From NCBI GenBank assembly GCA_013334325.1, contig JAAXXT010000009.1:1-64000 (forward strand): a DNA stretch of 64,000 bases, in the 5' to 3' direction. Each line of letters starts with the position of its first letter. The first letter of the stretch is position 1. Shown piece by piece: positions 5,384-58,229 of the stretch. The DNA comes from Erysipelotrichaceae bacterium. GTDB taxonomy: Bacteria; Bacillota_I; Bacilli_A; Erysipelotrichales; Erysipelotrichaceae. The translations under genes and the position numbers were made by a program. The notes under the pieces are model-generated. The model worked only from the letters and a program-made list of their open reading frames with translations. It did not search any database and had not been told where the DNA came from.

Positions 5384-6589
5384 TTAGACCCGCTTTAAGT
5401 GGTCTCTTTGACGATGATAGTTACCTGCATAGATGACCAAGATCGGAGCGAAGATCGCTGAACAGAAGACTGCAACGGCCATATACATAGATTCAGGTAA
5501 AAAGACAGAAGCGATTAAGATAAAGCCCATACCGATCAATCTTCCAATATTCAGCATGACTTCTTTGATGATCATATGTCCATAGACAGAGCCCTTTTCC
5601 ATATAATCTTGCATCGCATTCATGACGATGATCGAATAAGGATTGATAAAGAAAGGTGCTGCGATCGCATTGATCGTCCCATAAATCAAAGCACCAACTA
5701 AATTAGGACTTAGAACCAAAACCATAGCTGCCCCAAATAACGCAAAGGCCCCATAAGTATAGAGCTTTAAACGATTGTCTCTTCGTTGAACCTTACGTAC
5801 GATGGTTGACCCAACGATACCTAAGATTGAAAAGACAATCAAAAGCGTTGAATATAAAGATCCTACTGAACCTAAGGCATTGTATAAAAGAAGTCCCATA
5901 ATGACCAGTGTAGCTGAGTCTCTGATCCCAAAGATAAGATGAGATGTCATCATATATCTCCATTGAGGATCATTTTTGATCTTGAATTTATCAAGTAAGG
6001 TAAAGTTATCCTTACACGCAGCCACATCGATCGTAGAGGATAAATAAGCTGTAAAGGTATGAAGTAAGATAACCAATTGAAAAATAAAGAGATAACCTTG
6101 AGTATCCGTTGAAGAGAAGCTTACGATCAAAGCCGCAATCGAAGGTGCCAATACCGTTGAGATCGCATTGGTGATACTCATCGTCGTCACAAACATCGCT
6201 CTAGTTTTCTTCTCAGAGACCGCTAAACTGAGGTTATTGGCGGAGAACCAATACATGCCTTCTCCTATCCCAAAAGCTACCCCAATCAAATAAATGAAGG
6301 CATAATTCGTTTTAATCAATTCAGTAAAGGTCAATAAGAAACCTAATGTAGCGATGATGATCACTAGACCACTGGTTAAGGAAGTCGCTAAACGAGTACG
6401 TTTACCTAAGATTCCTCCGATTAAGAAACCTAAAGGAAAAAAGCCAAAACGAATCATCGCATAGATGGTCATTTCGACTAAGGAACCTGTAAAGGCATAA
6501 AGATATACGTTTACGAAGACGCCGCTCATGGTTCCTGATAAGAAATATAAGGCATTGACCACTAACAGTCGTTTTTCGTTTTTAGTCAT
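5384..6589 (-). CDS. MFS transporter
   Basis: About 12 predicted TM segments, MFS-like repeat architecture. Confidence 0.7.
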   Translation of the reverse strand: MTKNEKRLLVVNALYFLSGTMSGVFVNVYLYAFTGSLVEMTIYAMIRFGFFPLGFLIGGILGKRTRLATSLTSGLVIIIATLGFLLTFTELIKTNYAFIYLIGVAFGIGEGMYWFSANNLSLAVSEKKTRAMFVTTMSITNAISTVLAPSIAALIVSFSSTDTQGYLFIFQLVILLHTFTAYLSSTIDVAACKDNFTLLDKFKIKNDPQWRYMMTSHLIFGIRDSATLVIMGLLLYNALGSVGSLYSTLLIVFSILGIVGSTIVRKVQRRDNRLKLYTYGAFALFGAAMVLVLSPNLVGALIYGTINAIAAPFFINPYSIIVMNAMQDYMEKGSVYGHMIIKEVMLNIGRLIGMGFILIASVFLPESMYMAVAVFCSAIFAPILVIYAGNYHRQRDHLKRV

Positions 6590-46999: not shown

Positions 47000-47515
47000 A
47001 TGAACCGTCAATCTGAACTTTTCGACTCCGTATATCACGCCAGTTTTAAGACCTTATCTAAATTTGTCTATTTTAAAACTGCTCAATTGGCGGATGCGGA
47101 AGACATCGTTCAAAACGTATATGCCTCCTATTATCGCTATGTGATCGTTCCCAATAAAACCGTAGATAATCCAGTCGCTTATCTTCTCGAATTGGCGAAG
47201 AATGAATTGGCTTCATATTATAAGGATAAGGCCATCACCAATGAGAATACGGTTGAAGCTGAAGTTGACATCTTAGATAACTTTCCTTCAGAGACAGATC
47301 TCGCTTTAGAAACCATCGAAAAGTTCTCCGTTGAAGCCATCTATGATCAAGTCAAGACCTTACATCCTCTCGATCAAAAGATCATCGCAGGAAGATTTAG
47401 ATATGAACTTACTTTCGCTGAAATCGCTAAACAAGTAGATTTAAGTGAAAACACCATAAAGACTCGATATTATCGAGCCATCCAAACTTTAAAAGATAAA
47501 TTAGACAAAAAATAA
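47000..47515 (+). CDS. ECF-type RNA polymerase sigma factor
   Basis: Region 2 (FKTAQLADAEDIVQNVYASYYRYV) and region 4 (LHPLDQKIIAGRFRYELTFAEIAKQVDLSENTIKTRYYRAIQTLKDKL). Confidence 0.85.
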   Translation: MNRQSELFDSVYHASFKTLSKFVYFKTAQLADAEDIVQNVYASYYRYVIVPNKTVDNPVAYLLELAKNELASYYKDKAITNENTVEAEVDILDNFPSETDLALETIEKFSVEAIYDQVKTLHPLDQKIIAGRFRYELTFAEIAKQVDLSENTIKTRYYRAIQTLKDKLDKK

Positions 47516-47550
47516 ACAATTTATCTTTTTTTGAAACTATTTAAGTAAAA

Positions 47551-47570
47551 CTCATCTCGAACAAGATGAG
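47551..47570 (+). other. Intercistronic hairpin between sigma and anti-sigma-like genes
   Basis: CTCATCT-CGAACA-AGATGAG; no T-run after it. Confidence 0.4.
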
Positions 47571-47597
47571 ACAGGTTTATCCCTAAAGGAGAAGTCA

Positions 47598-49196
47598 ATG
47601 AGTAAACTAAGAAGTGCGATGACGAAAAACGTCATGAACGAAGAGAAGATGTATTCAGAACTAAGTAAAGGTCTAGGTTTAAAAGCCGCCAAGAAGAAAG
47701 ATTCTTTTTGGTTAAGAAACGCCCTCATCAGTGTCAGTTTGGTGTGTTTGGTGGTATTTGGATCCTTCTATGATGGTTTAGGAAAAAACAAGATCTCTGG
47801 ATCTCTCGCAACCGCCATCATATCGATCGACATCAACCCAAGCTTTACCTTAGAAGTCGATGGGAATAATCTCGTCATTTCAATCAAAGCTGAAAACACA
47901 GACGCTGAAAAGATCTTAGTCACTGATCTTATTGGTCAAGATGCGGCTTTAGTCGTTGAAACGATCATCTTAAGAGCTCAAGAAGCTGGTTTCTTAATGG
48001 ATCCTACTTTATCTGATTATGTATTAGTTACTACTGCACCAGCGCATGAAGGTGATGAAAGTGCTGCTGATCATTTAAATGATTTGATTCAAGAAGCATT
48101 GAATAAAGAAGGCACTAGTGATGATGTCAACGTAGCTCTCATCAAAGCAACCCTTCAACAATGGTTAGATGCCTTAGATAAGAACGTTCCATTAGGACTC
48201 TATGTCATTAGTGGATTGGTCAACGTCAACGGTGAAATCATGAGCGTAGCGGATTTCTTCAAGACTTCAGGTAATCTTGAACTCTTAGAAACCATTTCCC
48301 ATATCGTTAAAAAGACGACTTTAAATACTGTATCTTTATTAGAACGTTTCCTTGATCGTCTAGAAAGAGCTGGCGTCGATGTGACTGCCTTAAGAGCTCG
48401 TTTAGTAGCCGACGGTGAAAACCTCGCTGTATTAAAAGCTGATGTCTTGGCTCTATGGGCCGCTTTAGACCCAGATGTACAAGCAGGTTCCAGTTTAAGC
48501 GATACCGCAAAAGCCGACATGAAAGTCGTCATCGAAGGTCTCTTAGCTCAACTGAAGGCCTTAGGACTTGATGTTTCTGGGTATGAAACTTACTTAGCTG
48601 CTGATGGGGCAGATCTACAATCCATCGAAAAAGAATTGGTTGCCTTATTGAACCTCAATGGAGTCGATACATCAACTGGATCTACTTTGACCTCAGCTGA
48701 TAAAGACGCCATCGTTACCTTACTAAACGATATGATCAAACAACTTAAAGCTTTAGGTGTAGATGTAAGTGCTTATGAAGCACTACTCGCAGGCACTAAT
48801 CCTGATCTATATGCATTGGAAACCACATTAAAGGGCTTATTAGCCGCTAATGGGGTCGATACGAGCACAGGTTCTACAAGTGCTGGATCACAGACGCTCT
48901 TCCAAGAACTCTCAGCCAAGATCAATCAACTCAGACTCTTAGGCATCGACGTAACAGCTTTCCTCGCTCGACTCAACGCAGTCAATCCTGATTATGCGGC
49001 ACTTGAACTCGATGTGAATATCGCATTAACCGCTAAGGGGATCGATACTACCACCGGATCAACCACAACTTCAGGTGAAGATGATGATGACGAGGATGAT
49101 GACGAAGATGATGACGAAGAGGATGACGAAGAGGACGAAGATGAACATGAAGAAGAAGACGAAGAAGATGAAGAGGATGATGAAGACGAAGATTAA
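47598..49196 (+). CDS. RsgI-like transmembrane anti-sigma factor with tandem extracytoplasmic repeats and acidic tail
   Basis: Single TM (NALISVSLVCLVVFGSF), then SLATAIISIDINPSFTLEVDGNNLVISIKAENTDAEKIL like the RsgI periplasmic domain; downstream of a sigma gene. Confidence 0.8.
   Translation: MSKLRSAMTKNVMNEEKMYSELSKGLGLKAAKKKDSFWLRNALISVSLVCLVVFGSFYDGLGKNKISGSLATAIISIDINPSFTLEVDGNNLVISIKAENTDAEKILVTDLIGQDAALVVETIILRAQEAGFLMDPTLSDYVLVTTAPAHEGDESAADHLNDLIQEALNKEGTSDDVNVALIKATLQQWLDALDKNVPLGLYVISGLVNVNGEIMSVADFFKTSGNLELLETISHIVKKTTLNTVSLLERFLDRLERAGVDVTALRARLVADGENLAVLKADVLALWAALDPDVQAGSSLSDTAKADMKVVIEGLLAQLKALGLDVSGYETYLAADGADLQSIEKELVALLNLNGVDTSTGSTLTSADKDAIVTLLNDMIKQLKALGVDVSAYEALLAGTNPDLYALETTLKGLLAANGVDTSTGSTSAGSQTLFQELSAKINQLRLLGIDVTAFLARLNAVNPDYAALELDVNIALTAKGIDTTTGSTTTSGEDDDDEDDDEDDDEEDDEEDEDEHEEEDEEDEEDDEDED
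48330..49072 (+). repeat. Four degenerate ~64-aa coding repeats in the RsgI-like protein
   Basis: G[VLI]DV anchors at 48372, 48564, 48756, 48942 (spacing 192, 192, 186 nt); GVDTSTGST/GIDTTTGST linkers. Confidence 0.85.
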
Positions 49197-49238: not shown

Positions 49239-49282
49239 TTTGTCGTTTGATTGAATCTTAAGATGAGATGACTTATAATGAG

Positions 49283-49445
49283 ATTGCGAAATACGGTGCT
49301 TTTTAAAAGCTCAAAAGGGAATTCGATTAAACGAAGCTGTCCCAGCAACTGTAGGTCCGGACAAGAGGAGACATACCACTGTGAAAACGGGAAGGTTCCT
49401 CAAGGATGAAAGACCAGCCAGTAGACCTGCCCTATATCCGCAACG
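49283..49445 (+). promoter_or_regulatory. Cobalamin (B12) riboswitch
   Basis: GGTGC near the 5' end, AAAAGGGAA, CCAGCAACTGTAGGTCCGGAC, and B12 box AGCCAGTAGACCTGCC at 49416-49431. Confidence 0.92.
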
Positions 49446-49446
49446 C

Positions 49447-49520
49447 TTTTATCTTCTGGGAAAAAGATAAAAAGACAAGCCTGTCTTTTTTCACACATCC
49501 CTTAGATGTGTGTTTTTATT
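49447..49520 (+). terminator. Riboswitch expression platform: overlapping hairpin plus two terminator-like hairpins
   Basis: TTTTATCTT/AAGATAAAA (49447-49473), AAAGACA/TGTCTTT+T (49471-49491), CACACATC/GATGTGTG+TTTTTATT (49492-49520). Confidence 0.65.
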
Positions 49521-49532
49521 GAAGGAGGCAAC

Positions 49533-49964
49533 ATGAAGAAAAATGCAGTAAGAATAGGTTTAGCTTTTTTAGTGTTAGTGTTAAGTTTAGGTGCCTATAA
49601 GATCTATTCAGATTCAAAGTTAGATCAAGGCTCTAAATCCATTCAAATCGTCATCCAAGACGATAAACAAGTCGTCTTATTCGATAAAACGGTCAAGACT
49701 CATGCGGAAACATTAGGAGACCTTTTAGATGAAATGATCGCAGAACAACGTTTAAGTATCGTGTACTCTGGAAACAAGACCGATCTCTATGGACGCTTCA
49801 TCACCAAGATCAATGATCTTGAATCGAAAGAAGCGGGTCCTTGGTGGGTCTATGCTTCCACAACCAACGCTGAATGTATAGCGGCTGGATATTGTGGGGG
49901 AATCGACGTGAATCCTATCCACGATAAAGACATTTTTACTTTCTCTCTAAGTATGGGTTATTGA
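49533..49964 (+). CDS. DUF4430 / transcobalamin-C-terminal-like membrane-anchored extracytoplasmic protein
   Basis: N-terminal anchor; GDLLDEMI and GPWWVYASTTNAECIAAGYCGGIDVNPIHDKDIFTFSLS fit DUF4430. True ATG after GAAGGAGG; the listed start lies in a terminator stem. Confidence 0.78.
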   Translation: MKKNAVRIGLAFLVLVLSLGAYKIYSDSKLDQGSKSIQIVIQDDKQVVLFDKTVKTHAETLGDLLDEMIAEQRLSIVYSGNKTDLYGRFITKINDLESKEAGPWWVYASTTNAECIAAGYCGGIDVNPIHDKDIFTFSLSMGY

Positions 49965-50503
49965 TGAGACCTCTACTAAAATACCTTATCTTAGCCTTAT
50001 TGGCGGCGATGCTTTTTATGGCCCAATTGACCTTGGCACTTTTGCCTAATGTAGAATTGGTGACCTTACTTTTAATGAGTATCGCGGTCCTATTTAAGTT
50101 TAAAGACGGTGTTTTAGTGGTGGTCCTGTTTACCTTATTAGAAGGGCTCTATTGGGGTTTTGCGGATTGGGTCTTAGGTTATCTATGGATATGGAGCCTA
50201 CTTGTCATTTTGACTCAGATCACCAAGCCACTTACCTTAATGAAAGCACATCGAATGGCCATCCTGGGAGGTCTATTTGGCCTGGCCTTCGGTTTCCTTT
50301 TCGCCCTTCAACACGCTGTATTGTATGGTTTATCGATGGGCATCTCCTATTGGATGATGGGGATTGGATTCGATCTACTTCATGGTTTTGCGAATTATAC
50401 TTTGATCTTATTGTTGTTTGAACCGATCAATAAACTTCTAAGTAACTTGATCAGAAAGGCGGAAAGCAGATATGGGCGTCGTAACTACGAAAACGGGAGA
50501 TAA
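49964..50503 (+). CDS. ECF transporter S component (predicted cobalamin)
   Basis: Polytopic membrane protein with S-component-like pattern; riboswitch-controlled; ATG overlaps the preceding stop (TGATG). Confidence 0.7.
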   Translation: MRPLLKYLILALLAAMLFMAQLTLALLPNVELVTLLLMSIAVLFKFKDGVLVVVLFTLLEGLYWGFADWVLGYLWIWSLLVILTQITKPLTLMKAHRMAILGGLFGLAFGFLFALQHAVLYGLSMGISYWMMGIGFDLLHGFANYTLILLLFEPINKLLSNLIRKAESRYGRRNYENGR

Positions 50504-50936
50504 GGGAACTACTTATCTAAAAGACAGTGTGGTCTCAAAAGGATCCTTTAGGGTAGATGCGATGGGCACCATCGATGAGCTTATCGCCAATCTTATCTTG
50601 ACCCAATCGATCACGAAATTGGATCGAGAACTCTTTGAGACCCCTATTAAGAAACTGATTGAAATTGGATCTTACTTAGCGGGTTATAAAGAGGTCCCTG
50701 ACTTCAAACAGACCACTGAATATATGGAGAAGATCATTATGAGTCGAAGGGAAGCTTATAATGGCTTCATCTATCCTTATGATGATCCTAGAAACGCTCA
50801 AATCAATGTCGCAAGAACGATTTGTAGACGTGCAGAACGCACCATCATTCGTCTACACGAAGAAAGCAATCAACCTGAAAGTCTCCTCATATTTATGAAT
50901 AGGCTTTCAGATTATATTTTCGTGCTTATCGGATAA
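50472..50936 (+). CDS. PduO-type ATP:cob(I)alamin adenosyltransferase
   Basis: TKTGDKGTTYL, ARTICRRAERTIIRL, FMNRLSDYIFVL. Confidence 0.9.
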   Translation: MGVVTTKTGDKGTTYLKDSVVSKGSFRVDAMGTIDELIANLILTQSITKLDRELFETPIKKLIEIGSYLAGYKEVPDFKQTTEYMEKIIMSRREAYNGFIYPYDDPRNAQINVARTICRRAERTIIRLHEESNQPESLLIFMNRLSDYIFVLIG

Positions 50937-51021
50937 ATGTAAGAGATAATGAAAACGAACTTTTAGTTTTATATGATAAAATAGTAGCACGATGTTTATA
51001 GAAGAAGGGACGGGAAATCAT

Positions 51022-53535
51022 ATGTATCAGAAAGAAACTATTTTTAAATTAAACCAAGACATCACCACGCATTTCACACACATTTTCCCTATTGAGCCAA
51101 GCTTTTCATTGACCCACGCAGGAGTAAGTCGTTTGGTTATGTTGGATAGATATTCTCAAAAAGACAGAAGTCTTAAGACCCTTGGGGTCAATGACCTCGT
51201 CGTTACCATCGTAAAAGAAGATCCTAAGTTTCCAGCTCGAGGCATTGGGATCATTACGAAGATGGATAAAGAAAAAGAAGAAGTTACTATTAAGCTCGAT
51301 GAAGAATTTAGAGCGATCTTAGAAGATGAGAAGGAAGCCGAAACAGGGCTTATTGTCCGTCCTTTTAAACGAGTAGAAAAACCTTTAGAGATCTATTATG
51401 AACAGATCGCTAAACGTGTAGGTAAGTCTTTAGCGTCCACTGAACAAACTCCTGAACTTAAAGAAAAGTTCAGTGCTTCTTTCGCTGATGAACTCGCTAA
51501 AATGAACATCATCCCTGCAGGTAGAGTACTGTATGGGGCAGGTAGTGGAACACAAGTTACTTACTTCAATTGTTTCGTTATGCCTTTTATTCATGACAGT
51601 AGAGGAGGCATCTCCAGTCATCGTGCAGAAGTCATGGAGATCATGTCTAGAGGTGGAGGTGTAGGAACCAACGGATCTACACTTAGACCTAAGAGCGCCC
51701 CTGCGAAAGGCGTAGGTGGTAAATCATCAGGCGCAGTCAGTTGGCTCAACGATATCGCTAATCTAACCCATTTGGTTGAACAAGGCGGAAGTCGTCGTGG
51801 TGCCCAAATGATCATGTTGGCAGATTGGCATCCAGACATCATCGAATTCATTGTATCTAAGATGCAAAATGCCAAGGTCTTAAAATGGCTCACTGAAAAC
51901 TCAAAAGATTATCAGATCGTAGAAGAAGCTAAACGTAAACTGAAATTCGTTCCTTTGACAAGAGTTGAAAGAGAACTATATGAAGCAGTCGTCGACAGTA
52001 AGAATGCTGCTCCTCAAGTCGTTGAATACGCAAGAGAGATGTTGATCGACGGAGGTAAACTAGAAGTCCACGCCCCTGAATTCTTATCAGGCGCTAATAT
52101 TTCAGTAACCTTTACAAAAGAATTCATGGAAGCAGTTAAACATGACCGCGACTTCGAACTTCGTTTCCCAGATCTACAGAATTATACAAAACAACAAAAA
52201 GATGACTATGATGCCAAGTGGCAAGACTGTGGTGATGTCAGAGAATGGCAAGCCATGGGTTATCCTATCAAAGTCTATAGAACGATAAAAGCCAGAGATC
52301 TATGGGATCTCGTCAGTTTCTGTTCGACCTATTCTGCAGAACCTGGAATCTTCTTCATCGACAACGCCAATGACATGACCAACGCGAAAGCTTATGGACA
52401 AAAAGTCGTCGCCACCAATCCTTGTGGTGAACAACCTTTAGCGGCCTATAGTGTATGTAACTTAGCCGCCATCAACTTAGCCAACTTCGTCGATCGTAAG
52501 AGCGGTAAGATCCTGTATAAGGAACTCGCCGATAGCGTTAAGATCTGTGTACGTATGCAAGATGACGTCATCGACGATACACCTTACTTCTTAGAACCCA
52601 ATCAAAAACAAGCCACTGGTGAACGCCGTGTCGGCTTAGGTGTTATGGGCCTTCATGATCTATTGATCTGGGCTGGTCTACGTTATGGCTCAAAACAATC
52701 CTTGGTCGCCATCGATGAGATCTTTAGAACCATCGCCGAAGCTGCTTATACAGAGTCCATCGACTTAGCCGCTGAAAAAGGATCTTTCCCTTTCTTGACT
52801 AGTCGTGAAGCTTTCATAAATACAGGCTATATGAGACAAATGAACGATGATATCCGTAGTGGTGTCCTCAAACATGGGATCCGTAATTCTCATTTATTAA
52901 CCATAGCCCCTACAGGTTCCACAGGAACCATGGTTGGGGTATCAACTGGTCTTGAACCTTATTTCTCATTCTCCTACTTTAGAAGCGGAAGACTCGGTAA
53001 ATTCATCGAAGTCAACGCCCAGATCGTAGAAGACTGGTTGGCAGTTCATCCAGAATATACACGTCAAACCTTACCTGATTTCTTCGTCTCAGCGATGGAT
53101 CTTACCCCTGAAGAACACGCCGATACCCAATGTGCAATTCAACGTTGGATCGACTCTTCGATCTCCAAAACGGTCAACGCCCCTAAAGGCTTCTCCGTTA
53201 AACAAGTCCAAAAGATCTATGAACGTCTCTATGATGGAAAAGCCAAAGGCGGAACCGTGTATGTCGATGGAAGTCGTGATTCTCAAGTCCTTTCTCTCAG
53301 TAATGATGAAGATAAGAATTGGGCTCAAATGGACCTCGTCAAAGACTTTGGGGTCAACGTCAAAGAACAACAAGTTGAAGAAAAGAAAACAGATCTTAGA
53401 TCTGATCGTATGGATAGAAACATCGGCGTTGAAGTCGGTGATATCTGCCCAATCTGTTTAGAAGGTGTCGTTGAAGAAATCGGTGGATGCAATACTTGCA
53501 CCAACTGTAACGCACAGCTTAAATGTGGTCTCTAA
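51022..53535 (+). CDS. nrdJ: Adenosylcobalamin-dependent (class II) ribonucleoside-diphosphate reductase
   Basis: NPCGEQPLAAYSVCNLAAINLANFV, APTGSTGTMVGVSTGLEPYF, C-terminal CPICLEGVVEEIGGCNTCTNCNAQLKCGL. Confidence 0.92.
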   Translation: MYQKETIFKLNQDITTHFTHIFPIEPSFSLTHAGVSRLVMLDRYSQKDRSLKTLGVNDLVVTIVKEDPKFPARGIGIITKMDKEKEEVTIKLDEEFRAILEDEKEAETGLIVRPFKRVEKPLEIYYEQIAKRVGKSLASTEQTPELKEKFSASFADELAKMNIIPAGRVLYGAGSGTQVTYFNCFVMPFIHDSRGGISSHRAEVMEIMSRGGGVGTNGSTLRPKSAPAKGVGGKSSGAVSWLNDIANLTHLVEQGGSRRGAQMIMLADWHPDIIEFIVSKMQNAKVLKWLTENSKDYQIVEEAKRKLKFVPLTRVERELYEAVVDSKNAAPQVVEYAREMLIDGGKLEVHAPEFLSGANISVTFTKEFMEAVKHDRDFELRFPDLQNYTKQQKDDYDAKWQDCGDVREWQAMGYPIKVYRTIKARDLWDLVSFCSTYSAEPGIFFIDNANDMTNAKAYGQKVVATNPCGEQPLAAYSVCNLAAINLANFVDRKSGKILYKELADSVKICVRMQDDVIDDTPYFLEPNQKQATGERRVGLGVMGLHDLLIWAGLRYGSKQSLVAIDEIFRTIAEAAYTESIDLAAEKGSFPFLTSREAFINTGYMRQMNDDIRSGVLKHGIRNSHLLTIAPTGSTGTMVGVSTGLEPYFSFSYFRSGRLGKFIEVNAQIVEDWLAVHPEYTRQTLPDFFVSAMDLTPEEHADTQCAIQRWIDSSISKTVNAPKGFSVKQVQKIYERLYDGKAKGGTVYVDGSRDSQVLSLSNDEDKNWAQMDLVKDFGVNVKEQQVEEKKTDLRSDRMDRNIGVEVGDICPICLEGVVEEIGGCNTCTNCNAQLKCGL

Positions 53536-53555
53536 AAATCCCGTAAGGGATTTTT
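53534..53555 (+). terminator. Terminator after nrdJ
   Basis: AAAATCCC-GTAA-GGGATTTTT. Confidence 0.75.
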
Positions 53556-53573
53556 ATTTGATATGATAGACCT

Positions 53574-57609: not shown

Positions 57610-58229
57610 TTTTTAATGACCTCGCTTGCCTTTAGTAGATCTTCATAGGTCTGACAGACAAGAAGATTCTGTCCTTTAACTCCATTTGGGTTATTCATAA
57701 TGGCTCTTCCACCTAAGATGATCTTAAGCTCAGGATTGGCCTCATTGACTAAACCGATCATCGTATTTAAGCTGCTCATCGTATAGAAGTTAGAGATACT
57801 GATGGCTAACGCATCGAGATGACACTCTCTTACGAGATCTACCAATTCATGTTTAGGTAAACTGTTACCTAAGTAATAGACCTCAAAACCTAATAGTCTA
57901 AGATAATCCGCAGCGATCCTTCCACCCAACTCATGAAGTTCTCCTTCAGGGGTCACAACGGCGATCTTGCGGGTTTTTTGTGTTGGGGCGAGCTTAAGTA
58001 CATAAGGATACATCGCTTCGATGGTGGTCCTTACGATCTGTGTCTTGATGTGTTCTTCCCATACATTGTGATCTTTATTGTCTACATCTTCTAAGGCATG
58101 AGAAAGAATGCCTTGATAGACGCTGATCAAATCGATTTGTTTTTTATCTAAGGCGTTTGTGATCAATGATAAAGCAGTATCTTTATCTAAAGCATTCAAT
58201 GCGTTTAAATACTGTTGTTTAAGTTCCAT
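57606..58229 (-). CDS. Stand-alone B12-binding domain protein (helical cap + Rossmann-like domain, no HTH)
   Basis: VWEEHIKTQIVRTTIEAM cap; VVTPEGELHELGGRIAADYLRLLGFEVYYLG (E-x-H-x-x-G), LAISISNF, KIILGGRAI. Confidence 0.85.
   Translation of the reverse strand: MELKQQYLNALNALDKDTALSLITNALDKKQIDLISVYQGILSHALEDVDNKDHNVWEEHIKTQIVRTTIEAMYPYVLKLAPTQKTRKIAVVTPEGELHELGGRIAADYLRLLGFEVYYLGNSLPKHELVDLVRECHLDALAISISNFYTMSSLNTMIGLVNEANPELKIILGGRAIMNNPNGVKGQNLLVCQTYEDLLKASEVIKK

Follow-up and report, generated by a model that had tools for sequence, protein, structure and literature searches.

The closest described counterpart of the locus analyzed here is the nrdJ-cbrS-cbrT-pduO cluster of Lactobacillus delbrueckii, reported by Santos et al. 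2018 (PMC5997447). The ECF-CbrT complex of that organism transports vitamin B12 and cobinamide, with a Kd of 9 nM for CbrT, and it supports both growth and transport without CbrS (PMC5997447). In L. rhamnosus, K8Q211 is annotated as an 'Additional lipoprotein component of putative cobalamin ECF transporter', and the DUF4430 protein LGG_02295 is encoded beside rtpR, a class II RNR gene (PMC9963975). Burroughs et al. 2007 had predicted B12 scavenging for a transcobalamin-like SLBB domain encoded beside CbiO/CbiQ genes (PMC1796856). In animals, the isolated beta domain of human transcobalamin (TC) binds cobalamin (Cbl) without its alpha partner (PMC5599065).

We examined a locus of related content in a 64,000-nucleotide stretch of an Erysipelotrichaceae genome (contig JAAXXT010000009.1), referred to as the window. 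An earlier sequence-only reading had placed a cobalamin riboswitch, a DUF4430 protein, an ECF S component, a PduO-type adenosyltransferase and NrdJ in that order on one strand, and each part was re-identified, on the forward strand (Table 1). The first three genes overlap or abut, as that reading had stated: cbrS and cbrT share the sequence TGATG, and cbrT and pduO overlap by 32 nt. An 85-nt gap (50937-51021) separates pduO from nrdJ. Because gene order is the same in 10/10 of the closest relatives, with the riboswitch present in each, the arrangement is beyond chance. We consider it likely that the locus serves for cobalamin salvage and use, as a module of the CbrS-CbrT-PduO-NrdJ kind, in which CbrS would capture or cap the ligand, CbrT import it, PduO adenosylate it and NrdJ use it.

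Table 1. Features of the cobalamin locus, in window coordinates
Feature	Coordinates	Strand	Length	Basis or remark
Promoter-like site TTGAAT-17-TATAAT	49251..49279	+		5' of riboswitch
Cobalamin riboswitch aptamer, RF00174	49277..49449	+		86.4 bits against a gathering score of 31.5, E 6.6e-20
Tandem hairpins, T run after the second; intrinsic-terminator-like expression platform	49470..49512	+		
cbrS-like gene, DUF4430 / transcobalamin-beta-domain protein	49533..49964	+	143 aa	Profile and fold search
cbrT-like gene, ECF S component for cobalamin	49964..50503	+	179 aa	PDB 6fnp
pduO-type cob(I)alamin adenosyltransferase gene	50472..50936	+	154 aa	PF01923, E 6.6e-34, over cut-off
Extended -10 promoter motif TATGATAAAAT in the pduO-nrdJ gap	50972..50982	+		
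nrdJ, AdoCbl-dependent class II ribonucleotide reductase gene	51022..53535	+	837 aa	NF005991
Intrinsic-terminator-like hairpin 3' of nrdJ	53533..53556	+		-12 kcal/mol, z -5.1

The start of cbrS was set at ATG 49533 because a Shine-Dalgarno sequence, aaggagg, precedes this codon and not ATG 49506. Taken alone, the protein scores 13.9 bits against PF14478, below the cut-off of 23.8, and a PF14478 search of its own genome did not recover it. We therefore rely on the family, an alignment of 39 members, each encoded adjoining an S gene. PF14478 is matched by 24 of these 39 (best E 8.1e-21), and a search with the family profile returned 3u7z (1.3e-21), which is a solved bacterial structure of DUF4430 type, and Transcobalamin-1 (0.0016). 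The AlphaFold model of the window protein (pLDDT 91) shows a membrane helix at the N terminus and, beyond it, a globular domain with the transcobalamin beta-domain fold; its top 19 Foldseek matches were all 3u7z or transcobalamin, intrinsic factor or haptocorrin. Profile and fold agree, and the DUF4430 assignment is settled at the family level, with the window protein predicted to be a homologue of the transcobalamin/intrinsic-factor beta domain. The description 'bacterial analogue of transcobalamin' holds for the shared beta domain, as a homologue, and fails for the alpha toroid, which is absent. Since the human beta domain binds B12 in isolation, the lone DUF4430 domain is a plausible B12 binder. 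The transmembrane anchor spans residues 2-26, is preceded by MKK and has no lipobox cysteine; from the modelled helix and an orientation inferred for it, the protein is predicted to be extracytoplasmic and membrane-anchored. CbrS/DUF4430 is a widely conserved protein that is apparently untested so far, as no experimental test was found in the openly accessible literature that was searched.

The S component had been read as one for cobalamin, and both its sequence, which falls in the CbrT family, and its cobalamin-linked gene context bear this out. Its sole credible PDB sequence match was 6fnp, CbrT of L. delbrueckii (E 4.9e-11 with the single protein), and a profile built without 6fnp still matched it at E 6.5e-17. 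The AlphaFold model (pLDDT 93.6) has the six-helix S-component fold; Foldseek gave high-probability matches to RibU, ThiT and HmpT/FolT-type proteins with weak E-values, and 6fnp was absent from that list. Cobalamin binding and transport by the window CbrT may be expected from the proven L. delbrueckii homologue. For the remainder of the transporter we turned to the genome, an assembly of 1.95 Mb in 51 contigs, 98.8% complete, which was queried family by family and in which absences are not absolute. EcfT-EcfA-EcfA' genes were found beside truA, rplM and rpsI and would constitute a housekeeping ECF module shared with CbrT. No BtuC-type permease was found in the genome, and no CobS was found there either; together these absences are consistent with dependence on imported B12. 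FecCD matches considered as BtuC were rejected, being ABC-3 (zinc-type) and LivH-type branched-chain amino-acid permeases. Another ECF module, whose S component is of the riboflavin type, lies at L075 (G000:C14), where two nearby genes resemble SAM-hydroxide adenosyltransferases as judged by eye.

The two enzymes of the locus are identified by their family profiles. PduO reaches 100 bits against NCBIfam PduO_Nterm (TIGR00636), just under the cut-off of 108.45, in addition to its PF01923 match. NrdJ scores 1365 bits against NF005991 (cut-off 854) and has an NPCGE motif and C-terminal cysteines; its start is likely at 51022. The genome yielded no other PF02867 protein and no NrdD (class III), and NrdJ thus appears to be its only detectable RNR, which would probably make B12 capture essential in this lineage. 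The view that the module supplies deoxynucleotide synthesis stands in that respect and is too narrow in another: genes were also found for glutamate mutase S with GlmL, for a radical SAM protein of the B12 type and for a small protein that would bind corrinoids, so the module would serve more than NrdJ. The genes for subunit S of methylaspartate (glutamate) mutase and for GlmL lie at L109 (G000:C51, near 65 kb) and represent a further consumer of AdoCbl. The small protein, a putative B12 binder, is encoded within the window at 57612-58229 on the reverse strand, 4 kb from nrdJ; it is nearest to CarH/methyltransferase corrinoid domains, and no HTH domain was detected in it.

Across the order, the S gene was found in 104/196 genomes, and the DUF4430 gene adjoins it in the same orientation, on either side, at 77/80 loci (39/40 and 38/40 in the two sets of loci). 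Divergence of the DUF4430 proteins correlates with that of the S proteins (r 0.83; 0/9999 permutations), a correlation to which shared species history contributes. All 21 genomes with NrdJ, among the 196, also had an S match (hypergeometric 5.8e-7, kinship ignored). Among the first 40 loci, 19 have a cobalamin aptamer directly upstream, and some of these lack PduO or NrdJ. Many distant relatives carry the DUF4430-S pair with no riboswitch, PduO or NrdJ detected, and not all such pairs need therefore be for B12. At L035, the DUF4430 ORF (5576-5863, reverse strand) is shorter than the copy of its close relative L036 and is possibly broken or mis-assembled.

These elements suggest how the module would work. 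When AdoCbl is scarce, the riboswitch would let transcription through the tandem terminator hairpins into cbrS-cbrT-pduO. The beta-grasp domain of CbrS, tethered outside the membrane by its one helix, would most likely capture or cap corrinoids over the outward-facing cavity of CbrT and so raise the local concentration of B12 or the specificity for it. CbrT would join the shared ECF A/A'/T module to carry B12 across the membrane, PduO would adenosylate the imported B12, and NrdJ would use the AdoCbl to produce deoxynucleotides. Because ECF-CbrT imports B12 without CbrS, the DUF4430 protein probably serves as an accessory for capture or as a lid and not as an essential receptor, and on the same published ground (PMC5997447) the phrase 'receptor feeding transporter' may overstate its necessity.

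The near-invariant pairing and the co-divergence with the S gene would suit a binder of the ligand and a protein partner of CbrT equally well. CbrS could accordingly be pictured as a subunit accessory to CbrT, which it would stabilise or gate without itself binding B12, comparable to CbiN of cobalt ECF importers. Its single transmembrane anchor and the ability of ECF-CbrT to work alone are in keeping with that picture, but CbrS has specifically the fold of the beta domain that binds cobalamin and that, in humans, does so by itself, and we judge a non-binding subunit unlikely. A general scavenger of corrinoids or their precursors (cobinamide, other cobamides), which would widen the range of CbrT rather than act as a B12 receptor, accords with the acceptance of cobinamide and varied upper ligands by CbrT and with the scavenging of B12 or precursors proposed by Burroughs et al. 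(PMC1796856). With no CobS found, however, cobinamide is not obviously completable to cobalamin, and we hold this role to be improbable. Capture or capping of B12 at CbrT remains the role that we favor for CbrS.

The window CbrS further contains a CX5C insertion, with C115 and C121 in the loop between strands 4 and 5. Throughout the 39 family sequences the two cysteines are either both present (20/39) or both absent, and the insertion appears specific to this CbrS subfamily. A disulfide would be the simplest reading of the pair; any role of the loop at the ligand is speculation. One could imagine CbrS and CbrT forming a composite cobalamin site, with the beta-grasp domain standing as the transcobalamin beta domain and the S component replacing the alpha toroid, so that the ECF importer would carry a capture lid on its outside; the CX5C loop, on the B12-contact side of transcobalamin, would lock or even chemically handle the corrinoid. 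We put this forward as a doubtful proposal.

The control region 5' of cbrS contains the sole RF00174 copy found in the genome, which scores over the gathering cut-off and keeps the conserved core. TATAAT lies directly 5' of the aptamer in 9/9 relatives compared. Downstream of the aptamer, the hairpin at 49492-49512 is the stronger of the two (-10.2 kcal/mol, z -6.1; the first has z -1.45), and its strong stem and T run make transcription attenuation the likely mode of action, as read from the aptamer, the tandem hairpins and knowledge of the riboswitch family. Further upstream on the forward strand, 47000-49193 holds a gene for an ECF sigma factor and, after it, one for an RsgI-type anti-sigma protein that has a long acidic tail and repeated segments.

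How far this control extends into nrdJ is a separate matter. The motif TGnTAnnAT is present in the pduO-nrdJ gap at 10/10 loci (the window, L034 and L036-L043), as compared with 3.6% of background 95-nt windows; the gap is otherwise poorly conserved, and the element kept is TATGnTAgAAT. An upstream ATTTTCA in the gap is common to several relatives. A general sigma-70 scan gave counts no higher than shuffles (4/11 in one run), and only the conserved extended -10 motif was therefore taken as promoter evidence. Since it recurs at all ten loci, nrdJ probably has its own promoter, and the riboswitch would govern mainly cbrS-cbrT-pduO. The pduO-nrdJ interval yielded no terminator, so operon read-through into nrdJ is possible. 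A strictly co-regulated operon of riboswitch and four genes, with NrdJ also turned down by AdoCbl, would agree with the common strand, the order kept in 10 relatives and the missing terminator, but it has the motif-bearing gap against it and would repress the sole detectable RNR while its cofactor is abundant, and we give it little credence. A promoter of its own, by contrast, fits an enzyme that should not be shut off when its cofactor is plentiful, and nrdJ would probably stay on under those conditions. The 'unit ending in NrdJ' of the sequence-only reading is thus sound as gene order and doubtful as regulation.

The gene set and the capture proposal are already published or annotated (PMC1796856, PMC5997447, PMC9963975). 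The L. delbrueckii cluster encodes the same four functions as the window, with a homologous CbrT (27% identical over the aligned region), and an L. delbrueckii-type locus was recovered at L126, where the cbrS position holds a DUF4430 homologue (HMM E 4.7e-17). The 6fnp sequence served as the query for this recovery; searches with CbrT at class and phylum level stopped short of Lactobacillus. L126, the cleanest copy, has an ORF in the nrdJ position followed by DUF4430, cbrT and pduO, its CbrT being 98% identical to that of L. delbrueckii; in L127, the record that bears the L. delbrueckii name, the locus has fragmentary ORFs, with a DUF4430 match at the same position. The L126 record (JAEDAG010000008.1) is titled Faecalicatena absiana yet carries L. 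delbrueckii-like DNA and may be contaminated. The two arrangements differ in order, cbrS-cbrT-pduO-nrdJ behind a riboswitch in the window as opposed to nrdJ-cbrS-cbrT-pduO in L. delbrueckii, and Rfam found no cobalamin riboswitch in the Lactobacillus loci. The Lactobacillus ORF in the nrdJ position has about 739 aa, and the window NrdJ matches weakly, in L128 and L129 only. The anchors also differ: CbrS of L128, L129 and L131 is an apparent lipoprotein, with a cysteine after the signal stretch, whereas the window CbrS is transmembrane-anchored and has the paired-cysteine loop. L. rhamnosus K8Q211, to which annotation gives the same proposed role, likewise differs from the window CbrS in anchor type.

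Like the SLBB proteins of Burroughs et al., the window protein is a secreted or anchored beta-grasp domain of the transcobalamin clade, associated with ECF transporter genes in an organism in which CobS was undetected; unlike them, it is linked with a riboswitch and an S gene of CbrT type, and it stands alone, without an alpha toroid. With animal transcobalamin, intrinsic factor and haptocorrin it has the beta-domain fold in common (TM-score 0.49-0.59 by query length), but it lacks their alpha/alpha toroid, is only ~10-17% identical, is membrane-tethered and is encoded beside an ECF transporter gene. To these systems the present locus adds the riboswitch-led order, an NrdJ that appears to be the sole detectable RNR, a separate nrdJ promoter motif and the subfamily CX5C insertion. 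The widely conserved CbrS/DUF4430 is now tied to a characterised B12 importer, CbrT, which raises the question of whether an ECF importer can work with a binding protein on the outside that has a common origin with the human B12 carriers.
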